From Algoriphagus pacificus (GTDB taxonomy: Bacteria > Bacteroidota > Bacteroidia > Cytophagales > Cyclobacteriaceae), in NCBI RefSeq assembly GCF_017254845.1, contig NZ_JAFKCU010000008.1, forward strand, positions 1-64,000: DNA of 64,000 bases, in the 5' to 3' direction. Below the pieces are notes generated by a model, which saw only the letters and a list, made by a program, of their open reading frames with translations, searched no databases and was not told where the DNA came from. Within the stretch, counting starts at the first letter, position 1. Each line of letters starts with the position of its first letter. Below are positions 8,774 through 32,382 of this stretch, piece by piece. The translations under genes and the position numbers were made by a program.

Positions 8774-9474
8774 TTTGGACTGCCTTTCTATTGGGTTTTT
8801 TAGGTTCCTTCCATTGTGTGGGAATGTGCGGACCTATTGCCTTGGCAGTAGGTGGAGCCAATAAGCAAAGATTTTTAGGGAATAAAGTCATCTATCATAT
8901 CGGAAGGAGTCTAACCTATGCCTTGTTAGGCTTAATCGTTGGAAGTTTGGGCTTTTCCTTAGCCTTGGCAGGGATCCAACAAGGCATTTCCATCGCCATG
9001 GGAGTATTGATTTTAATTATGGCACTCAGCTTTAAAAAGTCAGAGAAGGTTAGCACTATCCCTGTTTTTTCAGCCTTTTTTTGCTGGATCAAAAGAATGC
9101 TTGGACAATCATTGAAATCAGGAAGGCCATCATCTTATTTTCTCACAGGCATACTCAATGGCTTGCTTCCCTGTGGGATGGTTTATATGGCTTTGGTAGC
9201 TGCTATCGGATTGCAAAGTCCTTGGCTTGGTGCTCAGTACATGTTTTTCTTTGGCATCGGAACTGTTCCTGTTTTACTAATGCTGATGATTTCAGGATCC
9301 ATTCTTCAATTTCAGAAAAAATTAAAACTCCAATCACTGATCCCATATTTGGGAATTGTGATTGGAGTGCTGTTTATTTTTAGAGGACTCGGCCTTGGAA
9401 TCCATGGTTTTAGCCCCGAGTTGCAGGTTTTTAACTATGGATCTCAGCGGGTGGAAATAACTATCTGCCGTTAA
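8770..9474 (+). CDS. SafE/TauE-type membrane protein of the cco cluster
   Basis: A 234-residue protein with about six membrane helices. The first helix carries the signature GFLGSFHCVGMCGP with H15, C16 and C20, typical of the sulfite exporter TauE/SafE (UreH-like) group found at the end of cbb3 oxidase clusters; a second conserved GxLPCGM(V/I)Y motif lies near residue 136. The cysteine pair suggests metal or thiol chemistry, possibly copper handling for the oxidase, but the substrate is not known. Its TAA stop overlaps the convergent hemN stop. Confidence 0.8.
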   Translation: MIWTAFLLGFLGSFHCVGMCGPIALAVGGANKQRFLGNKVIYHIGRSLTYALLGLIVGSLGFSLALAGIQQGISIAMGVLILIMALSFKKSEKVSTIPVFSAFFCWIKRMLGQSLKSGRPSSYFLTGILNGLLPCGMVYMALVAAIGLQSPWLGAQYMFFFGIGTVPVLLMLMISGSILQFQKKLKLQSLIPYLGIVIGVLFIFRGLGLGIHGFSPELQVFNYGSQRVEITICR

Positions 9475-10829
9475 ATAGCTTTACTGAAAATCTTGTTTTC
9501 ATGTCCCGGTTGAGCAAGGCGCAAATCCAAATTTTTACACACCTGCCTGATAACTGCCATCCCTAAGTCCGTAACCTCGAGCAGTTCTTTGTCCATTTTC
9601 ACCAGACCCTCCCATTCCATTTCTTTGAGGTTGAAAATCTGTTTTGAACCTAATTTCTCCCAAATCCCCGCCGGGATAAATGCCTCTTGCCGACAGATTA
9701 AATCAAGGATAATTTCACGAACCTGAATATCTTCCTGAGTCATTTTATGACCTTTTTGAATGGCTAATCCATCTTCCAAAATCTGGTTTTTATATTCCTC
9801 AATGCTTTTTTCATTTTGAGCATATCCAAAATACACTTCACTGATACTGCTGGCTCCGAGTCCTATCAAAAGCTTGGAAGGAGAAGTAGTATAACCCATG
9901 AAGTTTCGATGTAAGGTTCCATTTCTTTTGGCTTCACAAAGTGGATCTTCCGGTTTTGCAAAATGATCCATACCGATTTCTTCATAACCCATTTCCACAA
10001 GTTTTTCCCTTCCAAATTCATAAAGTGCTCTCTTTTCAAACTCATCTGGTAAGAATGCTTCAAAGCTTTTCTGAGCTGGGAAGGCGCTAGGTAAATGCGC
10101 ATAAGAATAAAATGCGATTCGGTCAGGATTTAAGATTTTCACTTTCTCAAATGTCTCAGAAAGGTTTTCTTTAGTCTGATGAGGAAGCCCATAAATTAAA
10201 TCAAAGTTGATAGAATGATATCCTATGTTTCTAGCATTTAAGGTAGCCTCAACAACTTTTTCGAAAGGCTGGATTCGGTGAATTGCTTTCTGCACTTGCA
10301 AATCAAAATCCTGAATCCCATAACTAACTCTATCAAAACCCAATTGATTCAATGCCTTGAGGTGATGAAAAGTGGTATTGTTGGGATGTCCTTCAAAACT
10401 GAATTCAGCATCTTCCATAACAATGGAATTTTCAAGAATTTCCGAAAGGAAATATTCTAAAGACTCTGGACTGAAAAATGTGGGAGTGCCGCCACCCAAA
10501 TGGACACCTGACAATTTTGGCTTTTCTCCAAAAAGGGTCAAGTACATTTTCCATTCTGCCAAAACAGCATCTAAATATGGAATTTCAACTCCATGGTTTT
10601 TTGTAATCCGCTTATTACAGCCGCAATACGAGCACAGACTTTCGCAAAATGGCAAATGAATGTAGAGCGTGATTCCTTCTTTTTGCCCAAACTGGAGAAA
10701 TGCTTTTTTTACGAGATCTTTCCAGCTTTCTGAGTTTACATTGTTTTCCCAGCCCGGTACGGTGGGATAGGATGTGTAGCGAGGTGCGGGTTTGTTATAC
10801 TTTTCAATTAACTCTGCTGATAGTTTCAT
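9471..10829 (-). CDS. hemN: Oxygen-independent coproporphyrinogen III oxidase
   Basis: Radical SAM enzyme that converts coproporphyrinogen III to protoporphyrinogen IX without oxygen, in the cytosolic haem pathway. It has 452 residues from the ATG at 10829. With this start the cluster cysteines fall at C62, C66, C69 and C71 (CESLCSYCGC), the same numbering as Escherichia coli HemN, which supports this start over the TTG at 10847. Other family features are PRYTSYPT near the N-terminus, GGGTPTFF, and a HemN C-terminal domain. An FNR-like palindrome lies about 70 bases upstream. It is convergent with the cco cluster and supplies haem needed under low oxygen. Confidence 0.95.
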   Translation of the reverse strand: MKLSAELIEKYNKPAPRYTSYPTVPGWENNVNSESWKDLVKKAFLQFGQKEGITLYIHLPFCESLCSYCGCNKRITKNHGVEIPYLDAVLAEWKMYLTLFGEKPKLSGVHLGGGTPTFFSPESLEYFLSEILENSIVMEDAEFSFEGHPNNTTFHHLKALNQLGFDRVSYGIQDFDLQVQKAIHRIQPFEKVVEATLNARNIGYHSINFDLIYGLPHQTKENLSETFEKVKILNPDRIAFYSYAHLPSAFPAQKSFEAFLPDEFEKRALYEFGREKLVEMGYEEIGMDHFAKPEDPLCEAKRNGTLHRNFMGYTTSPSKLLIGLGASSISEVYFGYAQNEKSIEEYKNQILEDGLAIQKGHKMTQEDIQVREIILDLICRQEAFIPAGIWEKLGSKQIFNLKEMEWEGLVKMDKELLEVTDLGMAVIRQVCKNLDLRLAQPGHENKIFSKAI

Positions 10830-21049: not shown

Positions 21050-22306
21050 TTAGAAATTTGAATTTAAGCTTTTGGCTTTACATATATAATGTTTCTCGAC
21101 GATTTTGCTCATGACCTTGATATTTGGAAGGTCAGCAGCCTGTGCAACGTCAATCACTTTTCCTTTCTTTGTCAAGATATTGATCCGGTCCTTAGCTAGG
21201 TATCCGTAATTGCTCACAGCACCATGCGAGAAGAAATACTCAAGATCTTCTTCCGAAATTTCCAGTTTTTTGATCGTTTTGAGCTTCATTTCTGCAATTT
21301 CCTCCTCACTAAACTGCTCATTTGTAAGCGTGATTTTGAAAAGGTCTCTTGTCAAAAACATATTGGAAATATTTCTCAAGACATAATCGGGATGCCGTTT
21401 CCAAAGTTTGACTGCTCCCCAAATATCCAAGTCATCCATTTCCAAAAACTGCTTTAGAATAGCCGGATTTTTTTGAAAATCCTCCATCGTATGGTTGTGA
21501 TTCAGAAAGAAATCAAATTCATCAGTTATCGTAAATTGTTGACCAGCCTGGCGAAGCATCTTGGCACGTTGTATCAAATTGATGAGCATTTTTTCTGCAC
21601 TGACTGTTGTCTTGTGCAAATAAACCTGCCAATACATAAGCCTTCTCGCGCTTAGAAAGTTTTCGATGGAATAAATTCCTTTTTCTTCAATGACAACCTG
21701 GTCATTTTTGACATCCATCATTTTGATTATCCTGTCTGCACCTATCGTGCCTTCGGAAACACCTGTGAAAAAACAATCCCGTTGCAAATAGTCCAGTCGA
21801 TCAATGTCAAGTTGACTAGAAACTAGCTGGTGAAAAAACTTTCGCTCGTAAGTATTCTTAAATATTCTTAAAACCAACTCTAATTTTCCATCCAATTCCT
21901 CATTCAAAAGCTCTATAATCAACATGGATAAGCGCTCATGCGGGACATTTTTGAGAAGGCTATATTCCAAAGCATGAGAAAATGGCCCATGCCCGATATC
22001 ATGCAACAGGATGGCTATCAGTGCTGCTTCGTATTCTTTGTTGCTTATTTCTGTTCCTTTTATGCGTAGATTATCGAGCGTAATGCTCATCAAATGCATT
22101 GCTCCGATGGCATGATGGAATCGAGTATGAAGTGCTCCCGGGTAGACAAAGTCAGTCAAACCCAGTTGTTTTATTCTGCGTAACCTCTGGAAATAAGGGT
22201 GATCTATGATTGTAAAAATCAACTCGCTCGGGATTGTGATAAATCCGTAAACCGGGTCGTTTAATATCTTTTGGCTTTTCAATGAGGCCTGATTTGATTG
22301 ACTCAA
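21050..22306 (-). CDS. HD-domain phosphohydrolase (dGTPase-like)
   Basis: A protein of up to 418 residues with the metal-binding HD signature: [14 protein letters not shown] (first histidines) and [13 protein letters not shown] (the HD pair). Such proteins are related to dNTP triphosphohydrolases and SAMHD1; the substrate is not known for this Bacteroidota group, which regularly precedes lpxD. No ATG precedes the conserved NDPVYGF segment. I list the TTG at 22306; a TTG at 22282 is equally possible. Confidence 0.85.
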
Positions 22307-22341
22307 AAGTAATTATAATTTTAAAAGAAACTGAACCTGAT

Positions 22342-23901
22342 ATGTCTCAAAAGTTCAATATACTCTGGGCAGATGATGAAATCGACTTGCTCAAACCCCA
22401 TATTTTATTTCTCGAACAGAAAGGATATGAGATCACTACCGTCAATTCGGGGGTCGATGCCATTGATGAAGTAGAGGCTCATAATTTTGATGTGATTTTT
22501 TTAGATGAAATGATGCCAGGTATGACTGGTTTGGAAACTTTGCAGCAAATCAAAATCATCAAACCTCAGATTCCCGTGGTGATGATTACCAAATCTGAGG
22601 AAGAGCACATCATGAATGATGCGATCGGTGGCAAAATCGCAGATTATCTAATCAAGCCATTAAATCCCAATCAGATCCTGCTTTCTGTCAAGAAACTTCT
22701 TCAAAACAGACAGCTGATAGATGAGAAAACCACGCTGAATTATCAACAGGAATTTATGAAGATCAGTATGGCTTTTGGTGATGCTCAAGACCATCAAGAC
22801 TGGTCTGATATCTACAAAAAGTTGATTTACTGGGAAATGCAAATTGATGCAACTGAAAACAAAAGCATGATTGAAGTGCTGGAAACCCAAAAAACAGAAG
22901 CTAATTCCTCTTTCGCCAGATTCGTCAAAGACAATTACATCGACTGGATGGAAGAAAAAAACAAGGATAAGCCCTTGCTTTCCCATCAAGTTCTAAAAAC
23001 CAAAGTCTTTCCAAAAATCCAGCCCGGAAAACCTTTGTTTTTGATAGTCATTGATAATCTCCGATTGGACCAATGGGAAGATATTGAGCCTTTATTGTCA
23101 GCATATTTTAACGTGGAGCAAAAGGAGACATACTATAGTATTCTTCCGACTACTACTGCTTTTGCAAGAAATGCTCTTTTCAGCGGCATGATGCCGATGG
23201 ACATGGCACGTTTTTATCCTAAATTCTGGGAGGATGAAGACTCCGACGAAGGGAAGAATAATTTTGAGGAGGATTGGTTAAAAATAAATCTGGAGAAAAA
23301 CAGACTTTCTATTAGATCCTCGTATCAAAAAATCCTACAGACACAGCAGGGAAAAACTGCGGTGGAGCAGTTTCATCAATTGATGCAAAATGATCTGAAT
23401 GTGCTGGTTTACAATTTTGTGGATATGATGTCTCATGCGAGAACAGACATGAAAATGATCCGGGAATTAGCACCTGATGAATCCGCCTACAGGTCTTTGA
23501 CTAAAAGTTGGTTTGAGCACTCCTCTCTTTTTGAGTTGTTTAAGAAAATCCATCATGCTGGAGCTGATGTCATCGTAACAACTGATCATGGAACTAAGCG
23601 TGTCAATAAACCTTATCGAATCATTGGTGATAAAAATGTTACTACCAACCTTCGCTACAAGCAGGGCAAGAACCTGAATTTTGAAGGAGGAAAGGTGTTT
23701 GAAATCAAAAGACCAGAAGACGCGAAACTGCCGAGATTGAATGTTTCCTCCAGTTATGTTTTTGCCGTGGAGGATTATTTCTTTGCCTATCCGAATAATT
23801 ACAATTATTATGTCAACTTCTACAAGGATACTTTTCAACATGGAGGTGTATCTTTGGAGGAAATGATCATTCCGATCATCCAGTTGTCACCAAAAAAGTA
23901 A
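22342..23901 (+). CDS. porX: PorX response regulator with PglZ phosphatase domain
   Basis: A 519-residue two-domain protein that regulates the type IX secretion system. The receiver domain (about 1-120) has acidic residues D11-D12 and phosphoacceptor D55 (VIFLDEMMPG). A three-helix linker leads to a PglZ alkaline phosphatase-like domain (about 200-519) with PTTTAFARN (nucleophile Thr region), TTDHG and FQHGGVSLEE metal-binding segments. In Porphyromonas and Flavobacterium, PorX works with PorY and a sigma factor and hydrolyses nucleotides. ATG 22342 gives the usual PorX N-terminus and length; the in-frame upstream ATG at 22282 would add 20 atypical residues. Confidence 0.94.
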   Translation: MSQKFNILWADDEIDLLKPHILFLEQKGYEITTVNSGVDAIDEVEAHNFDVIFLDEMMPGMTGLETLQQIKIIKPQIPVVMITKSEEEHIMNDAIGGKIADYLIKPLNPNQILLSVKKLLQNRQLIDEKTTLNYQQEFMKISMAFGDAQDHQDWSDIYKKLIYWEMQIDATENKSMIEVLETQKTEANSSFARFVKDNYIDWMEEKNKDKPLLSHQVLKTKVFPKIQPGKPLFLIVIDNLRLDQWEDIEPLLSAYFNVEQKETYYSILPTTTAFARNALFSGMMPMDMARFYPKFWEDEDSDEGKNNFEEDWLKINLEKNRLSIRSSYQKILQTQQGKTAVEQFHQLMQNDLNVLVYNFVDMMSHARTDMKMIRELAPDESAYRSLTKSWFEHSSLFELFKKIHHAGADVIVTTDHGTKRVNKPYRIIGDKNVTTNLRYKQGKNLNFEGGKVFEIKRPEDAKLPRLNVSSSYVFAVEDYFFAYPNNYNYYVNFYKDTFQHGGVSLEEMIIPIIQLSPKK

Positions 23902-25539: not shown

Positions 25540-26013
25540 CTAGGAAAGTAAGTTTTGACGAAGCAAAAACTCCAATTGCTCATTTGCTTTTAAAAGCGCT
25601 TCCGTCAATTTTTCGTTTTCTCTACGAAGAGTGAAAATTTCGTAGGCATTTTTGATTACCGTTCTGAGATAATCTTCTTCCCAAGGCTTGGTAAGGTAAT
25701 GGTAAACCTGTCCTTTGTTAATGGCATCAATTACAGCTTGGATATCAGTGTATCCTGTTAATAAAATCCGGATCGGATCTTTATAAATTGGAATAATAGA
25801 TTCTAAAAACTCAACCCCAGTTTCTTCTGGCATCCTTTGGTCAGTGATGATAATTTCTATCTCTTCCTCCTCCAAAATTTTACGGGCTTCAACCGCAGAA
25901 ATAGCTAAAAATATTTTATAATCCCTACGAAAAGTTGCTTTGAATGCCTGAAGATTATTTTCTTCATCATCTACATAAAGAATTTTTATTTTTTCCGTGG
26001 CTTTTTCTTCCAT
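25540..26013 (-). CDS. Single-domain response regulator with C-terminal coiled coil
   Basis: A 157-residue receiver protein with acidic residues D15-D16, phosphoacceptor D58 (IIITDQRMP) and LLTGY plus YHYLTKPW segments, followed by a short coiled coil (about 130-155) and no DNA-binding domain. Its receiver strongly resembles the one in the receiver-kinase at 31297-32382: both share the pattern DDE(E/D)NNL-x2-F-(K/R)AT and TDQRMP/ADQRMP. It is transcribed away from the E1/nitroreductase operon and ends two bases from the convergent ald stop. Confidence 0.9.
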   Translation of the reverse strand: MEEKATEKIKILYVDDEENNLQAFKATFRRDYKIFLAISAVEARKILEEEEIEIIITDQRMPEETGVEFLESIIPIYKDPIRILLTGYTDIQAVIDAINKGQVYHYLTKPWEEDYLRTVIKNAYEIFTLRRENEKLTEALLKANEQLEFLLRQNLLS

Positions 26014-26162
26014 GTTGCAAAAGTCTAAAAATTAGTTAGGATGCAAGCATTAAAAATAATTTTTTTTATTTACAAATAAGCAATAGGCAGATTTATAAAC
26101 CTCTATTTAATGAAATTTTTCAAAAAGTTTGACTCTAGAATTGAATTACAGCGATATTTAAT

Positions 26163-26191
26163 TTGAAGTTTAGTTGAAAAACCTAACTTTA
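26163..26191 (+). promoter_or_regulatory. Promoter of the E1/nitroreductase signalling operon
   Basis: TTG at 26163-26165, an 18-base spacer and TAACTTTA at 26184-26191 approach the Bacteroidota consensus TTG-N19-TAnnTTTG with one mismatch in the -7 element. It is followed by a leader of about 18 bases before the ATG at 26217. Confidence 0.45.
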
Positions 26192-26216
26192 CTCAGCTTT
26201 AATACACCCAACCTTC

Positions 26217-28484
26217 ATGAATAAAATTTTTGAATCTGGTATTTACAACCAGGTTTATCCTATAATTCTCAATCCTAAAAATCATGATGATCAAATCAAA
26301 CTGGATTTGCTTCTTCAAAACAATAATATCAAGGTCGTAAATACCCTTGATAATCAAATAATTGAACTTTTAAATGCTAAGAGCGGCGGGAAAAAGATCA
26401 ATTCTGATAAGCATAACCAATTGCTAAAAGAGTTTTATGAAGTAAATGATAAAGATACTTTTGGAAACTGGATCTACTATCCCTGGAAGAATACATTGGT
26501 CAGACTTCTCCCCGAAGAGGATTTTATTCTAGTCAGAACGTCGAGAAATAACTATAAAATCACCCAACAAGAACAAAAAGAATTAGCTACAAGGAAAGTT
26601 GGGATAATTGGGCTTTCTGTGGGACAAAGCATAGCGCTTGCGATGGCTTTGGAAAGGAGTTTTGGTGAGTTGCGTATTTCCGATTTTGATACGTTAGATT
26701 TAAGTAATATCAATCGATTAAGGGCTTCTATAATTGATTTGAATGAAGAAAAATCAATTATAGCTGCAAGAGAAATTTGGGAAATTGATCCTTATCTCAA
26801 TATTAAACTTTTTAGAGAGGGTATAAGTGAAGAAAACATTGATGATTTTCTTACCTCAGGAGGCAAGTTAGACTTGCTTATTGATGAATGTGATAGCTTT
26901 AATATTAAAGTATTAGCTAGAGAAAAAGCCAAGAAATATAAAATTCCTGTGGTCATGGAAACCTCCGATCGGGGAATGGTTGATATTGAAAGGTTTGACC
27001 TTGAGCCTGATCGACCAATTTTCCATGGTCATATGAAAGGAGTAAGTTATTCTGATTTGAAAGAATTAAGCGACAGGCAAAGGATTGCTATTGGGCTTAA
27101 AATTACCGGGATAAACACACTTTCTTCAAGGATGAAAGCATCCTTATTAGAAATGAACCAGACTATTACTTCCTGGCCCCAACTGGCTTCAGCTGTTTTT
27201 TTAGGGGGAGCTACAATTTCTCACATTGCTAGAAAATTATTGCTTGGAGCCAATTATCAATCTGGAAAGTGTTTGGTTGATATTGATGAGTTAGTAAAGC
27301 CAGAAGAAAATTCACAAGTAAAAGAGGTTGAAAAAGAAGCCATTTCATTTTCAGATTGGATGACCTTAATCCCTAATAACCTTCAACCTTCTTCTGTCAA
27401 TATTCCTCAAAATGACTTGAGAGATATAATCGAGCATGCCAACATGGCTCCATCTGGTGGGAATGTCCAACCATGGCATTGGATCTTAGATGAGAAGTCT
27501 ATTATTCATCTTTTTCATGACAAGACAAAGAGTGATTCTTTTCTTGATTTTTTAGGTACTGGATCTCTGATTGCATTCGGAGCTGCTCTTGAGAATTTAA
27601 GGTTGAAGGCTGCTTATTTGGGTTATGAGATAGAAATTATTCACCAAATCAATGAATTTGAGCAAGATTTAATCGCCTCGATTAGATTTATTTCAAAATC
27701 TCCATTACCATTAAAAGTGAAATACTCAGAGCTAGTAGAGGGAATTTCAAAAAGGTGCACGAATAGAAAAAATAACGAGAGAGTTGAAATTTCTGATCAA
27801 GTCATTTCTGAAATGGAAAATCTGGTTACAGATCTTGAATTAGGGATTAAGTCAAAAACTGACGATAAATCTCTACAGGAATTAGCTAGGATTATTGGAG
27901 AAATGGATCGTTTGAGATTATTGCATAAGCGAGGTTATCGCGATTTTATTAATGAAATCAGATGGACTGAAAAAGAAGCAATAGACACATCTGATGGAAT
28001 CGATATAGAAACATTGGAGCTTGAAGGTGCGGATAGAGCAGCATTAGGATTACTTAGAGATGCTGCTGCGGTCGAATTGCTGAGAGAAAATAATCTAGGG
28101 ACAGCTTTAAGCAAGATTTCTGATACAACAGTTCTTTCCTCCTCAGCTGTAGTAATGATTCAGGGAGCGTCTTTTGACCCAATTACTTACCTGAAAGCAG
28201 GGATAGCTTTGCAAAGGATCTGGATCAAAGCCAATTTAAATGACATTAGTATTCAGCCTATTTCAGCTTCTTTATTTATATTTCAACGCTTAAAAAGAGA
28301 AATCACCACTGGTTATAGTAAACTAAACCAAGAAAGGATTATTGAGTTATCAGAAGACTTGAATAAACTATTCAATGATGGCATTTCTTGTGAAAATTTA
28401 TTTTTGATCAGGTTAAATAAAGTGCAAGAACCCAGTGTAAGGGCATACAGAAGAGATGTTTCTAATTCACTAACCATAATTTAA
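26217..28484 (+). CDS. E1/ThiF-like adenylation domain fused to a nitroreductase domain (Rv1355c-type)
   Basis: A 755-residue two-enzyme fusion resembling the Rv1355c/MoeY type of Mycobacterium. An N-terminal extension (1-125) precedes an E1-like Rossmann domain with G132-x3-G136, D156-x-D158, N164 and R167 of the ATP site, K179 and D223-x2-D226 (DECD). It lacks clear CxxC zinc pairs and a canonical catalytic-cysteine loop, so it may adenylate a carboxylate without forming a thioester. The C-terminal part (about 395-755) is nitroreductase-like with the FMN-binding APSGGNVQPW (411-420). E1 plus nitroreductase recalls azole-forming peptide systems. The substrate is unknown. It leads an operon with an acyltransferase and two kinases. 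Confidence 0.8.
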   Translation: MNKIFESGIYNQVYPIILNPKNHDDQIKLDLLLQNNNIKVVNTLDNQIIELLNAKSGGKKINSDKHNQLLKEFYEVNDKDTFGNWIYYPWKNTLVRLLPEEDFILVRTSRNNYKITQQEQKELATRKVGIIGLSVGQSIALAMALERSFGELRISDFDTLDLSNINRLRASIIDLNEEKSIIAAREIWEIDPYLNIKLFREGISEENIDDFLTSGGKLDLLIDECDSFNIKVLAREKAKKYKIPVVMETSDRGMVDIERFDLEPDRPIFHGHMKGVSYSDLKELSDRQRIAIGLKITGINTLSSRMKASLLEMNQTITSWPQLASAVFLGGATISHIARKLLLGANYQSGKCLVDIDELVKPEENSQVKEVEKEAISFSDWMTLIPNNLQPSSVNIPQNDLRDIIEHANMAPSGGNVQPWHWILDEKSIIHLFHDKTKSDSFLDFLGTGSLIAFGAALENLRLKAAYLGYEIEIIHQINEFEQDLIASIRFISKSPLPLKVKYSELVEGISKRCTNRKNNERVEISDQVISEMENLVTDLELGIKSKTDDKSLQELARIIGEMDRLRLLHKRGYRDFINEIRWTEKEAIDTSDGIDIETLELEGADRAALGLLRDAAAVELLRENNLGTALSKISDTTVLSSSAVVMIQGASFDPITYLKAGIALQRIWIKANLNDISIQPISASLFIFQRLKREITTGYSKLNQERIIELSEDLNKLFNDGISCENLFLIRLNKVQEPSVRAYRRDVSNSLTII

Positions 28485-28486
28485 GA

Positions 28487-29191
28487 ATGTTCACATTCAA
28501 AGCATTTAGAGCTGTAGATGAACCTGACATTTGTCGAATGTTCATAGAAGGGCATGCAAATGTGTTGAAGGATTATGGGGTGACAAAAGTGACCTCTTCA
28601 AATAATGAATGGAAAGACAATCCATATGTGTTTGTGGTGACTGTTCATGATGATTTGACTGGGAATGTTGTCAGCGGTTTAAGAATACATATCGCTCATG
28701 AAGATTATCCTCTTCCATTAGAAGGAGCCATCAGCCAAGTAGATACTAATATCAGTAAAATAGTGGCTGAATACCGGGAGTTGGGAACAGGAGAAATTGG
28801 TGGTTTGTGGAATAGTAGAGCTGTTTCAGGATATGGAATAGGTGCTTTGTATTTGTCAAGAGCTTCGCTTGTGATTGCAGAACAGTTAGAGATCCCTTCT
28901 TTATTTGCTCTATGTGCGGAATATACACTAAAGCCTACCCTTCAAAAAGGCTTTGAAATTGAAACAAAAATCGGGAATAAAGGGACGTTCTTCTATCCAA
29001 AACTTGATCTTGTGGCAACATTGGCAGTTTCAAAGGATGTGAAAGGTTTGCCCCTGGCATTGAAAGAGGAGAGAGATTTTATTTTTGATTTAAGAAAAAA
29101 CTTACAGTGTGAACGTCTAGAAATGACCCCAAAAGGTGAAATTAAAATCACCTACGATCTCAAAATTTCAAATCCAAACTGGAGAATTTAA
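28487..29191 (+). CDS. GNAT-fold N-acyltransferase, autoinducer-synthase or FeeM-like
   Basis: A 234-residue soluble protein. The central segment EIGGLWNSRAVSGYGIG (103-119) has the strand-loop pattern of GNAT acyl-CoA binding (R111-x3-G-x-G), preceded by a beta-rich half with LRIHIA and followed by LFALCAEYTLKP. Spacing resembles acyl-homoserine-lactone synthases, FeeM N-acyl amino acid synthases and arginine N-succinyltransferases, but I cannot assign one. It begins two bases after the E1/nitroreductase stop and ends one base before the histidine kinase start, so it is part of the same pathway. Acyl donor and acceptor are unknown. Confidence 0.6.
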   Translation: MFTFKAFRAVDEPDICRMFIEGHANVLKDYGVTKVTSSNNEWKDNPYVFVVTVHDDLTGNVVSGLRIHIAHEDYPLPLEGAISQVDTNISKIVAEYRELGTGEIGGLWNSRAVSGYGIGALYLSRASLVIAEQLEIPSLFALCAEYTLKPTLQKGFEIETKIGNKGTFFYPKLDLVATLAVSKDVKGLPLALKEERDFIFDLRKNLQCERLEMTPKGEIKITYDLKISNPNWRI

Positions 29192-29192
29192 T

Positions 29193-31304
29193 ATGTTAGT
29201 ATTTTTTGCGTGGCTTTCCTTTAGTCTATTACAAATTAACCCTATCGTCATTGGTAATGAAAGCGTAGATCTCAATAGATATGAGTATTTGATTTTGGAT
29301 AAAAATCAAAATTTGGGTTTGACTGATGTGATGAATTCACAGGAATTTGAAAAAATCGACAACAGTTCGATCAATTTTGGTATTAATGATGATTTGGTTT
29401 GGCTTAGATATGATTTGATAAATACCAGTGAGGAAAATCTCAAATATTTATATATAAATAACCCTTCGTTAGATAGTTTGGAGCTATTTATTGTCAAGGA
29501 TCAGGAGGTCTTGCAAACTTATTATGGAGGTAGACTTGTAGATTATTTTTCAAAATCAATCTCTTCGAAATCTATCATTTTTGATATAAATCTTCCTAAA
29601 GATGAGCCTGTCACGCTTTACATGAAAGTAAAAAGCGTCAACAAAAAGATTATTACTTCAACAGTTAGTGACTTGGATTTTGTGAATTCACTTATCAATA
29701 AAGAGAATATTCTTTTTGGGATTTTTACAGGGATTATTGCAGGTCTCTTCTTCTATAATCTGTTTTTATACTTTTCAGTAAGGGATAAAATTTATCTGAT
29801 TTATGTGATTCATACACTTTTTGTTTGGCTCGCGCAAAGCTCCATATTAGGTTATACTCAAGAAATTTTCTGGCCAAATTCAGTTTGGCTAAACCTCAGA
29901 TCAGGAGTGATTTTCTCCTCTTTTGTAAGTATTGCAGGAATTTGGTTCTTGAGAGAATTCTTATTCACAAAATCCTTTATCCCGAAAATCGATAAAGGAT
30001 TCTACTTCATCTATGGAGTGTATGGTTTCATTCTTTTCAATGCATTTTTCTTTTCAATAACTATCAGTTATCAAGTATTACTTGTTACCCAATCGATTGT
30101 TGTGATGTTTGTTCTATTCGCAGCAGTTTTGATTGTAAAGCAAGGATACAGGCCGGCAAGGTATTACCTGTTGGCTTGGTCGATGTTTATGGTTGGTATT
30201 TTCATTTTTGTTTTAAGTGAAATGGGAGTCATCGCCACCACTAACCTTACTGCTTATGTAATGCCTTTGGGCTCAGCTTTAGAGGTGGTTTTGCTTTCAT
30301 TTGCTCTTGCTGATAGAATTAATATCCTCAAAAAAGAGAAAGAAAAGGAGCAGGCGGAAAGGCTGGAAGTTTTGAAAGAAAATGAGATTCTGGTCCGTGA
30401 GCAAAACACGATTCTTGAGAAAAAAGTGAAGTTGAGAACGGATGAATTAGAACATGCGCTGAGGAATCTTCAGAATACACAAAGTCAACTAGTTAGTCAG
30501 GAGAAAATGGCTTCCTTGGGTCAATTGACAGCTGGTATTGCGCATGAAATCAATAACCCGATCAACTTTGTAAGCTCCAATATCACTCCTCTAAAAAGAG
30601 ATATTAAAGATATCATGGAGGTGATTGAATTCTACAGAGAAGCTGGTCAGAAAGAGTTTTCGGAAAACTCAAAGAAAAAAGCGAAGGAATTGGAGGAAGA
30701 TCTTGAGTTGGATTATGTCTTAGACGAGGTAGATCAGCTACTGAAGGGGATGGAAGATGGAGCCCGAAGAACTGTGGAGATTGTAAAAGGCTTGAGGATT
30801 TTCTCCAGAGTAGATGAGCAGGATATCAAAAAGGTAGACTTGCATGATGGGATTAACAGTACTATTATTTTGTTGAACAGCACTATTCCTGGAAAAATAC
30901 GGATCGTGAGAGAGTTTGGTGAATTACCGATGGTAGAATGTCTAGCAGGTAAAATCAACCAGGTGTTTATGAACATTATCAACAATGCAGTTCATGCTTT
31001 AAGTGATAACATCGATGATATAAAAGACCCGCATATTACACTGAGAACGAAAGCTTTTGAAGAAACTGTCAGGATTGAAATTGAAGATAATGGCCCAGGA
31101 ATGCCAGAAAGTGTAAAACAACGTATATTTGAACCATTCTTTACTACAAAAGCGGTAGGAAAAGGGACAGGTTTGGGTCTGTCAATTGTTTATTCTATTA
31201 TTGAAAATCACAAAGGAACCCTCGAAGTAATAACTGAGCAGGGAGAAGGTACAACTTTTATTATTACCCTTCCTATATACCAAAGTACTCCAAGATATGA
31301 GTGA
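29193..31304 (+). CDS. 7TM-DISM sensor histidine kinase
   Basis: A 703-residue membrane kinase. A signal-like N-terminus (1-20) precedes a periplasmic DISMED2-type beta sandwich (about 25-160), seven membrane helices (about 165-385), a coiled coil (about 390-435), HisKA with phosphoacceptor H451 (AGIAHEINNP), and an HATPase domain with GPGMPES and GTGLGLSI. The DISM domain is thought to bind small ligands such as carbohydrates or modified metabolites. No receiver is attached, and the receiver-kinase that follows overlaps it by eight bases. The ATG at 29193 was chosen; the frame extends upstream into the acyltransferase gene without support. Confidence 0.9.
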   Translation: MLVFFAWLSFSLLQINPIVIGNESVDLNRYEYLILDKNQNLGLTDVMNSQEFEKIDNSSINFGINDDLVWLRYDLINTSEENLKYLYINNPSLDSLELFIVKDQEVLQTYYGGRLVDYFSKSISSKSIIFDINLPKDEPVTLYMKVKSVNKKIITSTVSDLDFVNSLINKENILFGIFTGIIAGLFFYNLFLYFSVRDKIYLIYVIHTLFVWLAQSSILGYTQEIFWPNSVWLNLRSGVIFSSFVSIAGIWFLREFLFTKSFIPKIDKGFYFIYGVYGFILFNAFFFSITISYQVLLVTQSIVVMFVLFAAVLIVKQGYRPARYYLLAWSMFMVGIFIFVLSEMGVIATTNLTAYVMPLGSALEVVLLSFALADRINILKKEKEKEQAERLEVLKENEILVREQNTILEKKVKLRTDELEHALRNLQNTQSQLVSQEKMASLGQLTAGIAHEINNPINFVSSNITPLKRDIKDIMEVIEFYREAGQKEFSENSKKKAKELEEDLELDYVLDEVDQLLKGMEDGARRTVEIVKGLRIFSRVDEQDIKKVDLHDGINSTIILLNSTIPGKIRIVREFGELPMVECLAGKINQVFMNIINNAVHALSDNIDDIKDPHITLRTKAFEETVRIEIEDNGPGMPESVKQRIFEPFFTTKAVGKGTGLGLSIVYSIIENHKGTLEVITEQGEGTTFIITLPIYQSTPRYE

Positions 31305-32382
31305 TAAAATCCATGTGCTCTACATCGATGATGAGGATAATAACCTTAAATCGTTCCGGGCAACTTTAAGAAAAGACTTTAAAATTTTTACTGCAATTGA
31401 TGCGGAGGAAGGGTTGCGTCTTGCCCAGGAAGAGGAAATTCATGTGGTAATAGCGGATCAAAGAATGCCAGGAATGACTGGTACAGAATTCTTTGAAAAA
31501 ATGGTCAAGATCAATCCTGATCCGATCAGGATTTTGTTGACAGGATATTCTGACATCGCTTCGGTAATTGATGCGATCAATAAGGGTGAGGTTTATAGGT
31601 TTATCGATAAGCCATGGAATATTGAGCAGATCAAAAATTCCATCAAAAATGCGGCTGATATTTACTTCATGAGAATGGAGCTCAAAGAGAAAAATATCAA
31701 GTTGAAGAAACTTCATTCTGAAATGAACCAGTTTGTTTACAGTCTTTCTCATGAGTTGAGAGGACCGCTGATGAGTATCTCAGGAGTTTCTAAATTGGCA
31801 AAACTGGAAGTAGAAGATCCCCATATTCTGGAATATTTTGAAATGATCGATTCAGCGACAGTGAAGCTGGATGATTACATTTATAAGATGTTGGATTTCT
31901 ATAGATCCACTAAAATAGATCATAAAGTCGCTTCTATTGATTTTAAATCTATCGTGGATCAACAAATGGAAGCATACAACGCCAAATTTGATTTGAGCCA
32001 TTTCCATGTGGATATTCAGATAAATCAGCAAGAAGAATTCTTCTCAGATGATGCAAAAATCAGAGTGATCCTGAATAATCTTTTTAGTAATTCTGTGCAG
32101 TTCCAAAAGCACGATCCAGGTCTTAAATCCATTTCTTTGACAATAGATGTACTTGACAATCAAGCCATCATCAGAGTAGAGGATAACGGAATTGGTATTG
32201 ATGCTAAACACCATCCTGAAGTTTTCAACCTTTTTACCAGAGCTACTCAGAAAAATGTCGGCGTAGGACTGGGACTTTACATGGTCAAAGAAGCTGTGGA
32301 GCAAATGGGAGGTAGAATTGATTTGGACTCAACTCTCAATGTAGGTACCAGCATTACGATCACTTTGCCTAATATGAATTAA
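31297..32382 (+). CDS. Receiver domain followed by histidine kinase (RR-HK)
   Basis: A 361-residue soluble protein with reversed order: a receiver (1-120, phosphoacceptor D54 in VIADQRMPG), a coiled coil (about 122-142), HisKA with H152 (SLSHELRGP) and an HATPase domain (about 245-361) with DNGIGID and GVGLGLYM. It overlaps the 7TM kinase gene by eight bases. Phosphorylation of D54 by that kinase would make this protein the second stage of a relay, perhaps with the lone receiver at 25540-26013 as final acceptor. Confidence 0.9.
   Translation: MSDKIHVLYIDDEDNNLKSFRATLRKDFKIFTAIDAEEGLRLAQEEEIHVVIADQRMPGMTGTEFFEKMVKINPDPIRILLTGYSDIASVIDAINKGEVYRFIDKPWNIEQIKNSIKNAADIYFMRMELKEKNIKLKKLHSEMNQFVYSLSHELRGPLMSISGVSKLAKLEVEDPHILEYFEMIDSATVKLDDYIYKMLDFYRSTKIDHKVASIDFKSIVDQQMEAYNAKFDLSHFHVDIQINQQEEFFSDDAKIRVILNNLFSNSVQFQKHDPGLKSISLTIDVLDNQAIIRVEDNGIGIDAKHHPEVFNLFTRATQKNVGVGLGLYMVKEAVEQMGGRIDLDSTLNVGTSITITLPNMN

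Follow-up and report, generated by a model that had tools for sequence, protein, structure and literature searches.

A probable signal-and-receptor module joining oxazolone-type enzymes to a 7TMR-DISM kinase in Algoriphagus pacificus and other Bacteroidota

Actinobacterial pairs of an acyltransferase gene and a gene fusing a ThiF domain to a flavin-dependent desaturase domain (FDO) are reported to make N-acyl oxazolones, and the Discussion of the 2025 tryptazolone paper (PMC12856293) names the physiological role of oxazolones as a major unresolved question. The closest described systems are TrzAS of Mycobacterium and Rhodococcus, which makes N-acyl tryptazolones and has this same gene pair, and the OxzAB system of Pseudoalteromonas rubra together with TyzACB, which share three activities with the locus described here, according to the portions of PMC12856293 and PMC10404671 used. 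The portion of PMC12856293 used names c-di-GMP genes as neighbors of TrzAS, and the word "kinase" does not occur in the text of that paper or of PMC10404671 as used. Here we analyze 64,000 nucleotides of Algoriphagus pacificus (contig NZ_JAFKCU010000008.1, positions 1 to 64,000; the window), in which genes of this kind lie packed against a 7TMR-DISM sensor histidine kinase. The acyltransferase and the sensing half of that kinase diverge together and are exchanged together among related species, and the locus is probably a signal-and-receptor module in which a self-made acyl-amino-acid or oxazolone signal and its cognate receptor form exchangeable pherotypes. The features are as follows.

25540..26013, minus strand: lone receiver of 157 residues without an output domain, with a near-invariant C-terminal tail (NxQLEFLLRQxLLS), from the open reading frame (ORF), domain search and alignment
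26014..26216: divergent intergenic region of 203 bases, read on the sequence, with presumed promoters both ways
26217..28484, plus strand: TrzS-like fusion of a ThiF cyclase (Pfam residues 114-251) and a flavin-dependent desaturase (residues ~385-755)
28487..29191, plus strand: TrzA-like N-acyltransferase with a GNAT fold like that of FeeM and acyl-homoserine lactone (AHL) synthases, from a fold match
28487..30272, plus strand: type-specific cassette (~1.8 kb), comprising the acyltransferase and kinase residues 1-360
29193..31304, plus strand: 7TMR-DISM sensor histidine kinase (7TM kinase), 703 residues counted from the ATG at 29193
29250..29687, plus strand: kinase ectodomain (DISMED2, residues 20-165), with a RetS sensor fold, hypervariable
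29703..30317, plus strand: 7TMR-DISM_7TM, the seven-helix membrane domain of the kinase
31297..32382, plus strand: receiver-histidine kinase (receiver-kinase), 361 residues

Co-divergence of the acyltransferase and the sensor half

Types were compared across 21 loci, consisting of the window, 19 Algoriphagus loci and one Cyclobacteriaceae metagenome-assembled genome (MAG); seven of the 20 loci besides the window come from MAGs. Two of the 22 loci named as Algoriphagus or close to it (L177-L197 and L199) were left out, L180 having no closed ThiF ORF and L189 lying at a contig end. Mean pairwise identity was 65 to 92% for six flanking proteins, 87% for the lone receiver, 84% for the kinase half of the 7TM kinase, and 91% and 75% for the receiver and kinase parts of the receiver-kinase. 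The variable parts were the acyltransferase (60%), the 7TM domain (55%) and the ectodomain (27%); the TrzS-like protein was variable too (ThiF core, 75%; FDO, 57%; N terminus, 46%). Read off its identity matrix, the acyltransferase forms three types of 11, 6 and 4 loci, with type I being 40 to 48% identical to types II and III and the latter two 61 to 64% identical to each other. The ectodomain and 7TM domain split into the same three types, whereas the kinase after residue ~360, the receivers and the flanks do not.

With flank distance regressed out, acyltransferase divergence correlated with that of the 7TM domain at r = 0.91 and with that of the ectodomain at 0.89 (maxima of 2,000 permutations, uncorrected for shared ancestry, were 0.47 and 0.39). 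The corresponding values were 0.07 for the kinase half, 0.10 for ThiF, 0.12 for the FDO, 0.13 for the lone receiver and 0.06 for the kinase part of the receiver-kinase. On trees of the 21 loci built by quick search, acyltransferase type changes twice on the 7TM tree, which is the minimum, 6 times on the TrzS tree, 8 times on the tree of receiver plus receiver-kinase, and 9 times on the kinase-half and flank trees. Label shuffling, which covered the 7TM, kinase and flank trees and excluded TrzS, gave averages of 8.8 to 8.9 changes; the 2 changes of the 7TM tree were matched by none of 5,000 shuffles, and the 9 seen for kinase and flanks were matched or undercut by 72 to 73%. Approximately unbiased tests rejected type I as a single clade for the kinase (p = 9e-4), the flanks (3e-4) and the receivers (5e-6), and also for TrzS.

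The limits of the exchanged unit can be placed closely. The TrzS-like gene carries almost no type signal (largest gap between and within types, 0.07), although it ends 2 bases before the acyltransferase. Identity steps up at kinase residue 361 and no type signal is left beyond residue ~380, while 28 of the 30 type-diagnostic kinase columns fall within residues 179-358, in the membrane domain. DNA breakpoints in the pairs L196/L197 and L187/L195 bound the cassette. A sequence-only reading had proposed that this locus both makes and senses a compound, and the co-variation of the sensing half, but not the kinase half, with the enzymes supports that proposal, in which signaling itself is the putative part.

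Wider comparisons drew on the 113 loci, out of 126 with ThiF, in which all five roles were recognized. Genes occur in order A (ThiF, acyltransferase, kinase) or order B (acyltransferase, ThiF, kinase), and a fused FDO may be present or absent in either. When divergence of the receivers and receiver-kinase was controlled for, acyltransferase and 7TM domain correlated at 0.90 over 36 loci of the window's family (f1) and at 0.88 over 34 order-A loci of a second family (f4), whereas acyltransferase and kinase half gave 0.02 and 0.07. Kinases and receivers are close in 83 pairs; mean 7TM identity was 48% in the 17 of these whose acyltransferases are at most 65% identical and 82% in the 64 whose acyltransferases are more than 75% identical. 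In six swapped pairs from other genera identity rises near residue 361, gradually in some. L074 and L066 are 96% identical in the flanks and 94% in the kinase half and 54% and 55% in the acyltransferase and 7TM domain. The pherotype-like pattern, in which the synthase and sensor half are polymorphic and co-inherited beside a conserved kinase half, is seen in order A and is weaker or undecided in order B.

The state of the desaturase leaves a similar trace. On FastTree trees without support values for the 113 loci, the 7TM tree requires 4 changes of FDO state, that of the ThiF core 6, the acyltransferase 9, the receiver-kinase 15 and the kinase and the receiver 16 each. The loci L123 and L133 have a common acyltransferase (87%) and differ in FDO, with 7TM domains 33% and kinase halves 81% identical. 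From the fewest changes on the 7TM tree and from this pair, the sensor seems to track both the acylated substrate and whether it is desaturated. In the pair L157/L160 gene order and FDO both differ and the kinase half is 83% identical.

Co-occurrence across genomes

Homologs of the ThiF protein (E <= 1e-60) were found in 41 of 196 genomes of f1, and the 40 loci besides the window were retrieved. The acyltransferase lay within two genes of ThiF in 39 of these and the 7TM kinase within three genes in 39; the lone receiver was present in 39 and the receiver-kinase in 35. Flanking synteny is conserved in f1 (porX ... ald, the locus, ppa), so adjacency within this family would by itself be weak evidence, which is why f4 and other families were brought in. 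A sample of 395 genomes from across the phylum held 10 with a ThiF match; the five outside f1 all had the acyltransferase, 7TM kinase and receiver-kinase in differing surroundings, with the receiver recognized in three. In f4, to which Pedobacter, Mucilaginibacter, Daejeonella and Parapedobacter belong, there was a match in 153 of 399 genomes, and 80 of the 153 were retrieved, hand-picked to spread over genera. Here the 7TM kinase was found in 79 of 80 loci (in L134 it is split into two ORFs), the acyltransferase in 79, the receiver-kinase in 77 and the receiver in 78. A set of named genomes, the best 80 of 450 confirmed candidates, overlaps the f1 and f4 sets, so that counts are not additive; it gave 79 loci with a closed ThiF ORF, of which 72 have the 7TM kinase. 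Six of the seven misses lie at contig ends, and the one true miss is L211, an Acidobacteriota MAG.

The sequence-only reading had tied the enzymes to the kinases by gene order, a link that would have been accidental if the homologs usually stood apart. Within the retrieved Bacteroidota loci the link is upheld, the kinase lying no more than three genes away in 39/40, 5/5 and 79/80 loci. Outside Bacteroidota the enzymes are also found apart from it: the 7TM kinase was absent from L211 and, in contrast to the window, from all three plasmid loci with TrzS homologs that were inspected (of 13 matching records, all actinobacterial). An accidental neighborhood was rejected, as co-location holds in f4 and in five genomes of other families with different flanks and two gene orders. 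The arrangement is more than chance because the source genome has only three 7TMR-DISM matches above the cut-off and because it recurs in other families. Genes are closely spaced, gaps of at most 60 bases separating ThiF from acyltransferase in 70 of 76 order-A loci, acyltransferase from kinase in 69 of 76, and kinase from receiver-kinase in 89 of 115; overlaps are exaggerated in these counts because starts were taken as first possible codons.

Several f1 genomes retain parts of the module. Six without a ThiF match (L084-L089) keep the receiver, 7TM kinase and receiver-kinase in the same place, with no acyltransferase or ThiF gene at the locus, and are possible listeners. In four others (L090-L093) only a lone receiver of 51 to 54% identity is left between ald and ppa; these remnants suggest that the module was lost stepwise. 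The f1 exception, L078, has a ThiF protein 38% identical and none of the other module genes; its homolog (8954-10060) has by eye enoyl-CoA hydratase-like, small GNAT and TetR regulator ORFs as neighbors and perhaps belongs to a different pathway. A full module also stands on a contig labeled as an Azovibrio (Pseudomonadota) MAG (L220), perhaps a mis-binned Bacteroidota sequence.

Gene products, proposed mechanism and alternatives

The TrzS-like protein has ThiF and Nitroreductase domains, in agreement with the E1/ThiF-nitroreductase fusion first read from the sequence, and matches NF005901 ("Rv1355c family") at 727.5 bits (cut-off, 476) over residues 12-753. Because of this full-length match and the published TrzAS and OxzAB systems, the enzymes cannot be called an undescribed type, which corrects the earlier reading of a possibly undescribed locus: judged by sequence, gene 1 encodes a ThiF-desaturase fusion of the TrzS/Rv1355c type and the pair is of the TrzA/TrzS (OxzA/OxzB) kind. 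An E1/ubiquitin-like or molybdopterin role for gene 1 was rejected, given the full-length Rv1355c/TrzS match and the far lower scores of the MoeB and ThiF models. The best plasmid-borne TrzS homolog is ~34% identical across 91% of the query. C225-D226 and several arginines are invariant in the TrzS-like proteins, their numbering being separate from that of D217, R540 and Q651 of M. smegmatis TrzS. The FDO is fused in the window and many relatives are ThiF-only; of 30 ThiF-only f1 loci, 29 genomes were searched for an FDO homolog elsewhere and none had one (E <= 0.001; three of three controls matched). A GGDEF gene (L257, 2923-3858) lies near the Rhodococcus plasmid TrzS, as published for rv1354c/rv1357c, and may point to an actinobacterial connection with c-di-GMP.

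The acyltransferase has zero Pfam or NCBIfam matches. Its top fold match in two aligners is the N-acyl amino acid synthase FeeM (PDB 2g0b; 13% identity), which supports the earlier call of a FeeM-like enzyme in the sense of a FeeM/AHL-synthase-like GNAT fold. The generic acyltransferase 1xeb scores Z 16.3 against 17.0, and with these less than 1 Z unit apart the fold by itself cannot single out FeeM. At L218 the ThiF-FDO gene and the kinase are separated by two tandem acyltransferase genes.

All five ORFs lie where the sequence-only reading had placed them, and the ORF listing and the junctions read on the sequence confirm their packing: 2 bases separate the TrzS-like stop (28484) from the acyltransferase start (28487), 1 base separates the acyltransferase end (29191) from the kinase ATG at 29193 (a more likely start than the listed GTG at 29136), and the 7TM kinase (end, 31304) and receiver-kinase (start, 31297) overlap by 8 bases. 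The lone receiver diverges from the TrzS-like gene across 203 bases (26014..26216), where a promoter scan gave scores not above those of shuffled sequences. The 7TM kinase has 7TMR-DISMED2, 7TMR-DISM_7TM, HisKA and HATPase domains; HisKA scores 26.3 bits, slightly below its cut-off of 26.9, and the phospho-acceptor H451 is kept in at least 97% of aligned 7TM kinases. The receiver-kinase has receiver, HisKA and HATPase domains, and its receiver is 51% identical to the lone receiver, a likeness already pointed out from the sequence. The tail of the lone receiver is at least 95% conserved at its positions through the last residue, has no second close match elsewhere in the source genome, and is perhaps a docking site. 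At L083 (9912-10403) a protein unrecognized as a receiver replaces the lone receiver and keeps the tail end FMLRHSLLS. A tandem pair of lone receivers divergent from TrzS occurs in L101-L106, L108, L109, L111, L116, L217, L219, L247 and L254, mostly Pedobacter-type loci. PorX, the response regulator of the type IX secretion system (NF052313, 827.6 bits; window positions 22282-23901), lies upstream of the lone receiver at a distance of three genes, a placement that belongs to the synteny kept within f1. The source genome (5.28 Mb, 50 contigs) has Algoriphagus (Cyclobacteriaceae, Bacteroidota) as its closest named relatives.

From the computed families, folds, co-location, co-divergence and breakpoints we infer the identity of the product, its binding, phosphotransfer and use between cells, and everything past the enzymes in the following scheme is of this kind. 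The FeeM-like enzyme would join an acyl thioester to an amino acid, giving an N-acyl amino acid that the ThiF domain would adenylate and cyclize to an acyl-oxazolone. The fused FDO would desaturate the oxazolone, and loci without it would yield a saturated product. The product may remain in the membrane or exit the cell, and would bind the adjoining kinase at the ectodomain and seven-helix domain, altering the activity of this kinase, with phosphate passing from the 7TM kinase to the lone receiver, the receiver of the receiver-kinase or both. The acyltransferase and sensor half are swapped jointly among related species, in the manner of peptide quorum-sensing pherotypes, while the kinase half and receivers stay.

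A number of results weigh against this scheme. In order B (43 loci), where ThiF lies between, the correlation of acyltransferase with 7TM domain is 0.44, with 0.02 for acyltransferase and ThiF and 0.36 for ThiF and 7TM, and acyltransferase clusters need 15 changes on the 7TM tree and 14 on the kinase tree. Over all 113 loci the contrast weakens to 0.55 versus 0.26 for the kinase, and once the flanks are controlled for in 35 f1 loci (L048 excluded) the acyltransferase correlates at 0.39 with the kinase half and 0.63 with the receiver, versus 0.92 with the 7TM domain. In f4 order A the acyltransferase clusters need 7 changes on both the ThiF-core and 7TM trees, and for FDO state in f4 alone these two tie at 3. 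Ten cross-genus pairs have acyltransferases at most 60% identical and yet 7TM domains at least 65% identical; a synthase without a sensor occurs at L078 and L211, and a sensor without a synthase at L084-L089. The Algoriphagus permutations leave shared ancestry uncorrected. In order A the acyltransferase adjoins the sensor half, which gives linkage a part in the pattern, and selection for co-inheritance is therefore read from the positions of the breaks, not from separated genes.

Nisin-type autoinduction offers a model for a different reading, in which the product is a diffusible inhibitor, the kinase switches on self-protection and the type swaps reflect warfare and immunity specificity. Joint exchange of maker and sensor fits this, and the portion of PMC12856293 used reports N-acyl tyrosines as antimicrobial; however, neither exporter nor immunity genes are a recurring feature of the mapped loci, in which genes outside the module roles were not individually annotated, and the sensor-only lineages are compatible with either view. 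We regard antimicrobial self-sensing as unlikely. Comparably improbable is a feedback internal to the cell, with the kinase reading an acyl-amino-acid lipid of the membrane it sits in, so as to adjust envelope or stress physiology, and no communication from cell to cell. The concentration of type-diagnostic columns in the membrane domain agrees with it, as does the finding that actinobacterial tryptazolones are commoner in cells than in supernatant, as given in the portion of PMC12856293 used, but a private metabolite sensor is not expected to show discrete exchangeable types unless products differ otherwise. A hot spot of recombination or diversification in which the acyltransferase and sensor half travel merely as neighbors, although favored by their contiguity in order A, the weaker signal in order B and a TrzS that is itself variable and partly associated (6 changes, not 9), is very improbable given the near-absent type signal 2 bases upstream and the lack of any after residue ~380 of the same kinase ORF, a mismatch of acyltransferase and 7TM types in 0 of 21 loci, and a 7TM tree that also follows FDO state.

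Comparison with known signaling systems

The enzyme and receptor families are known; what appears new is their pairing and its exchange as a specificity cassette. This has no precedent in the literature searched, from which the OxzAB paper and a survey of the E1 superfamily fell outside, and among the matches listed (titles and abstract starts, with subscription journals thinly covered) none connected sensor kinases or Bacteroidota with clusters of the oxazolone type. To our knowledge, few quorum-sensing systems have been characterized in Bacteroidota. As to whether the loci form a small-molecule quorum-sensing class in this phylum (Cyclobacteriaceae, Sphingobacteriaceae and others), with N-acyl amino-acid or oxazolone signals, a kinase domain of seven helices like those of G-protein-coupled receptors, dialects traded by the 1.8-kb synthase-plus-sensor cassette and some lineages listening only, we hold the two answers evenly balanced.

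The layout of the window recalls LuxM/LuxN, AinS/AinR and CqsA/CqsS of Vibrio, in which the synthase of an acyl-derived signal adjoins a sensor kinase with several transmembrane helices; the likeness is one of description, and synthase chemistry, receptor family and phylum differ. ComQXPA of Bacillus and AgrBDCA of Staphylococcus likewise combine a conserved kinase half with a synthase and sensor half that are polymorphic. They use peptide signals, for which pherotype logic is best known, whereas the window would hold a small-molecule pathway, and the proposed module, if true, would extend that logic to such pathways. Among 7TMR-DISM proteins, the ectodomain of Pseudomonas NicD is reported to bind carbohydrates, in the portion of PMC8544897 used. 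Compared with NicD and RetS of Pseudomonas, a self-made acyl-amino-acid ligand would be new. It would mean one more class of signal, in Bacteroidota, one more class of ligand for these receptors, and a first physiological role for acyl-oxazolones. The locus provides a receptor candidate tied to its synthase in many species, and the naturally swapped types form a panel on which ligand specificity can be put directly to the test.

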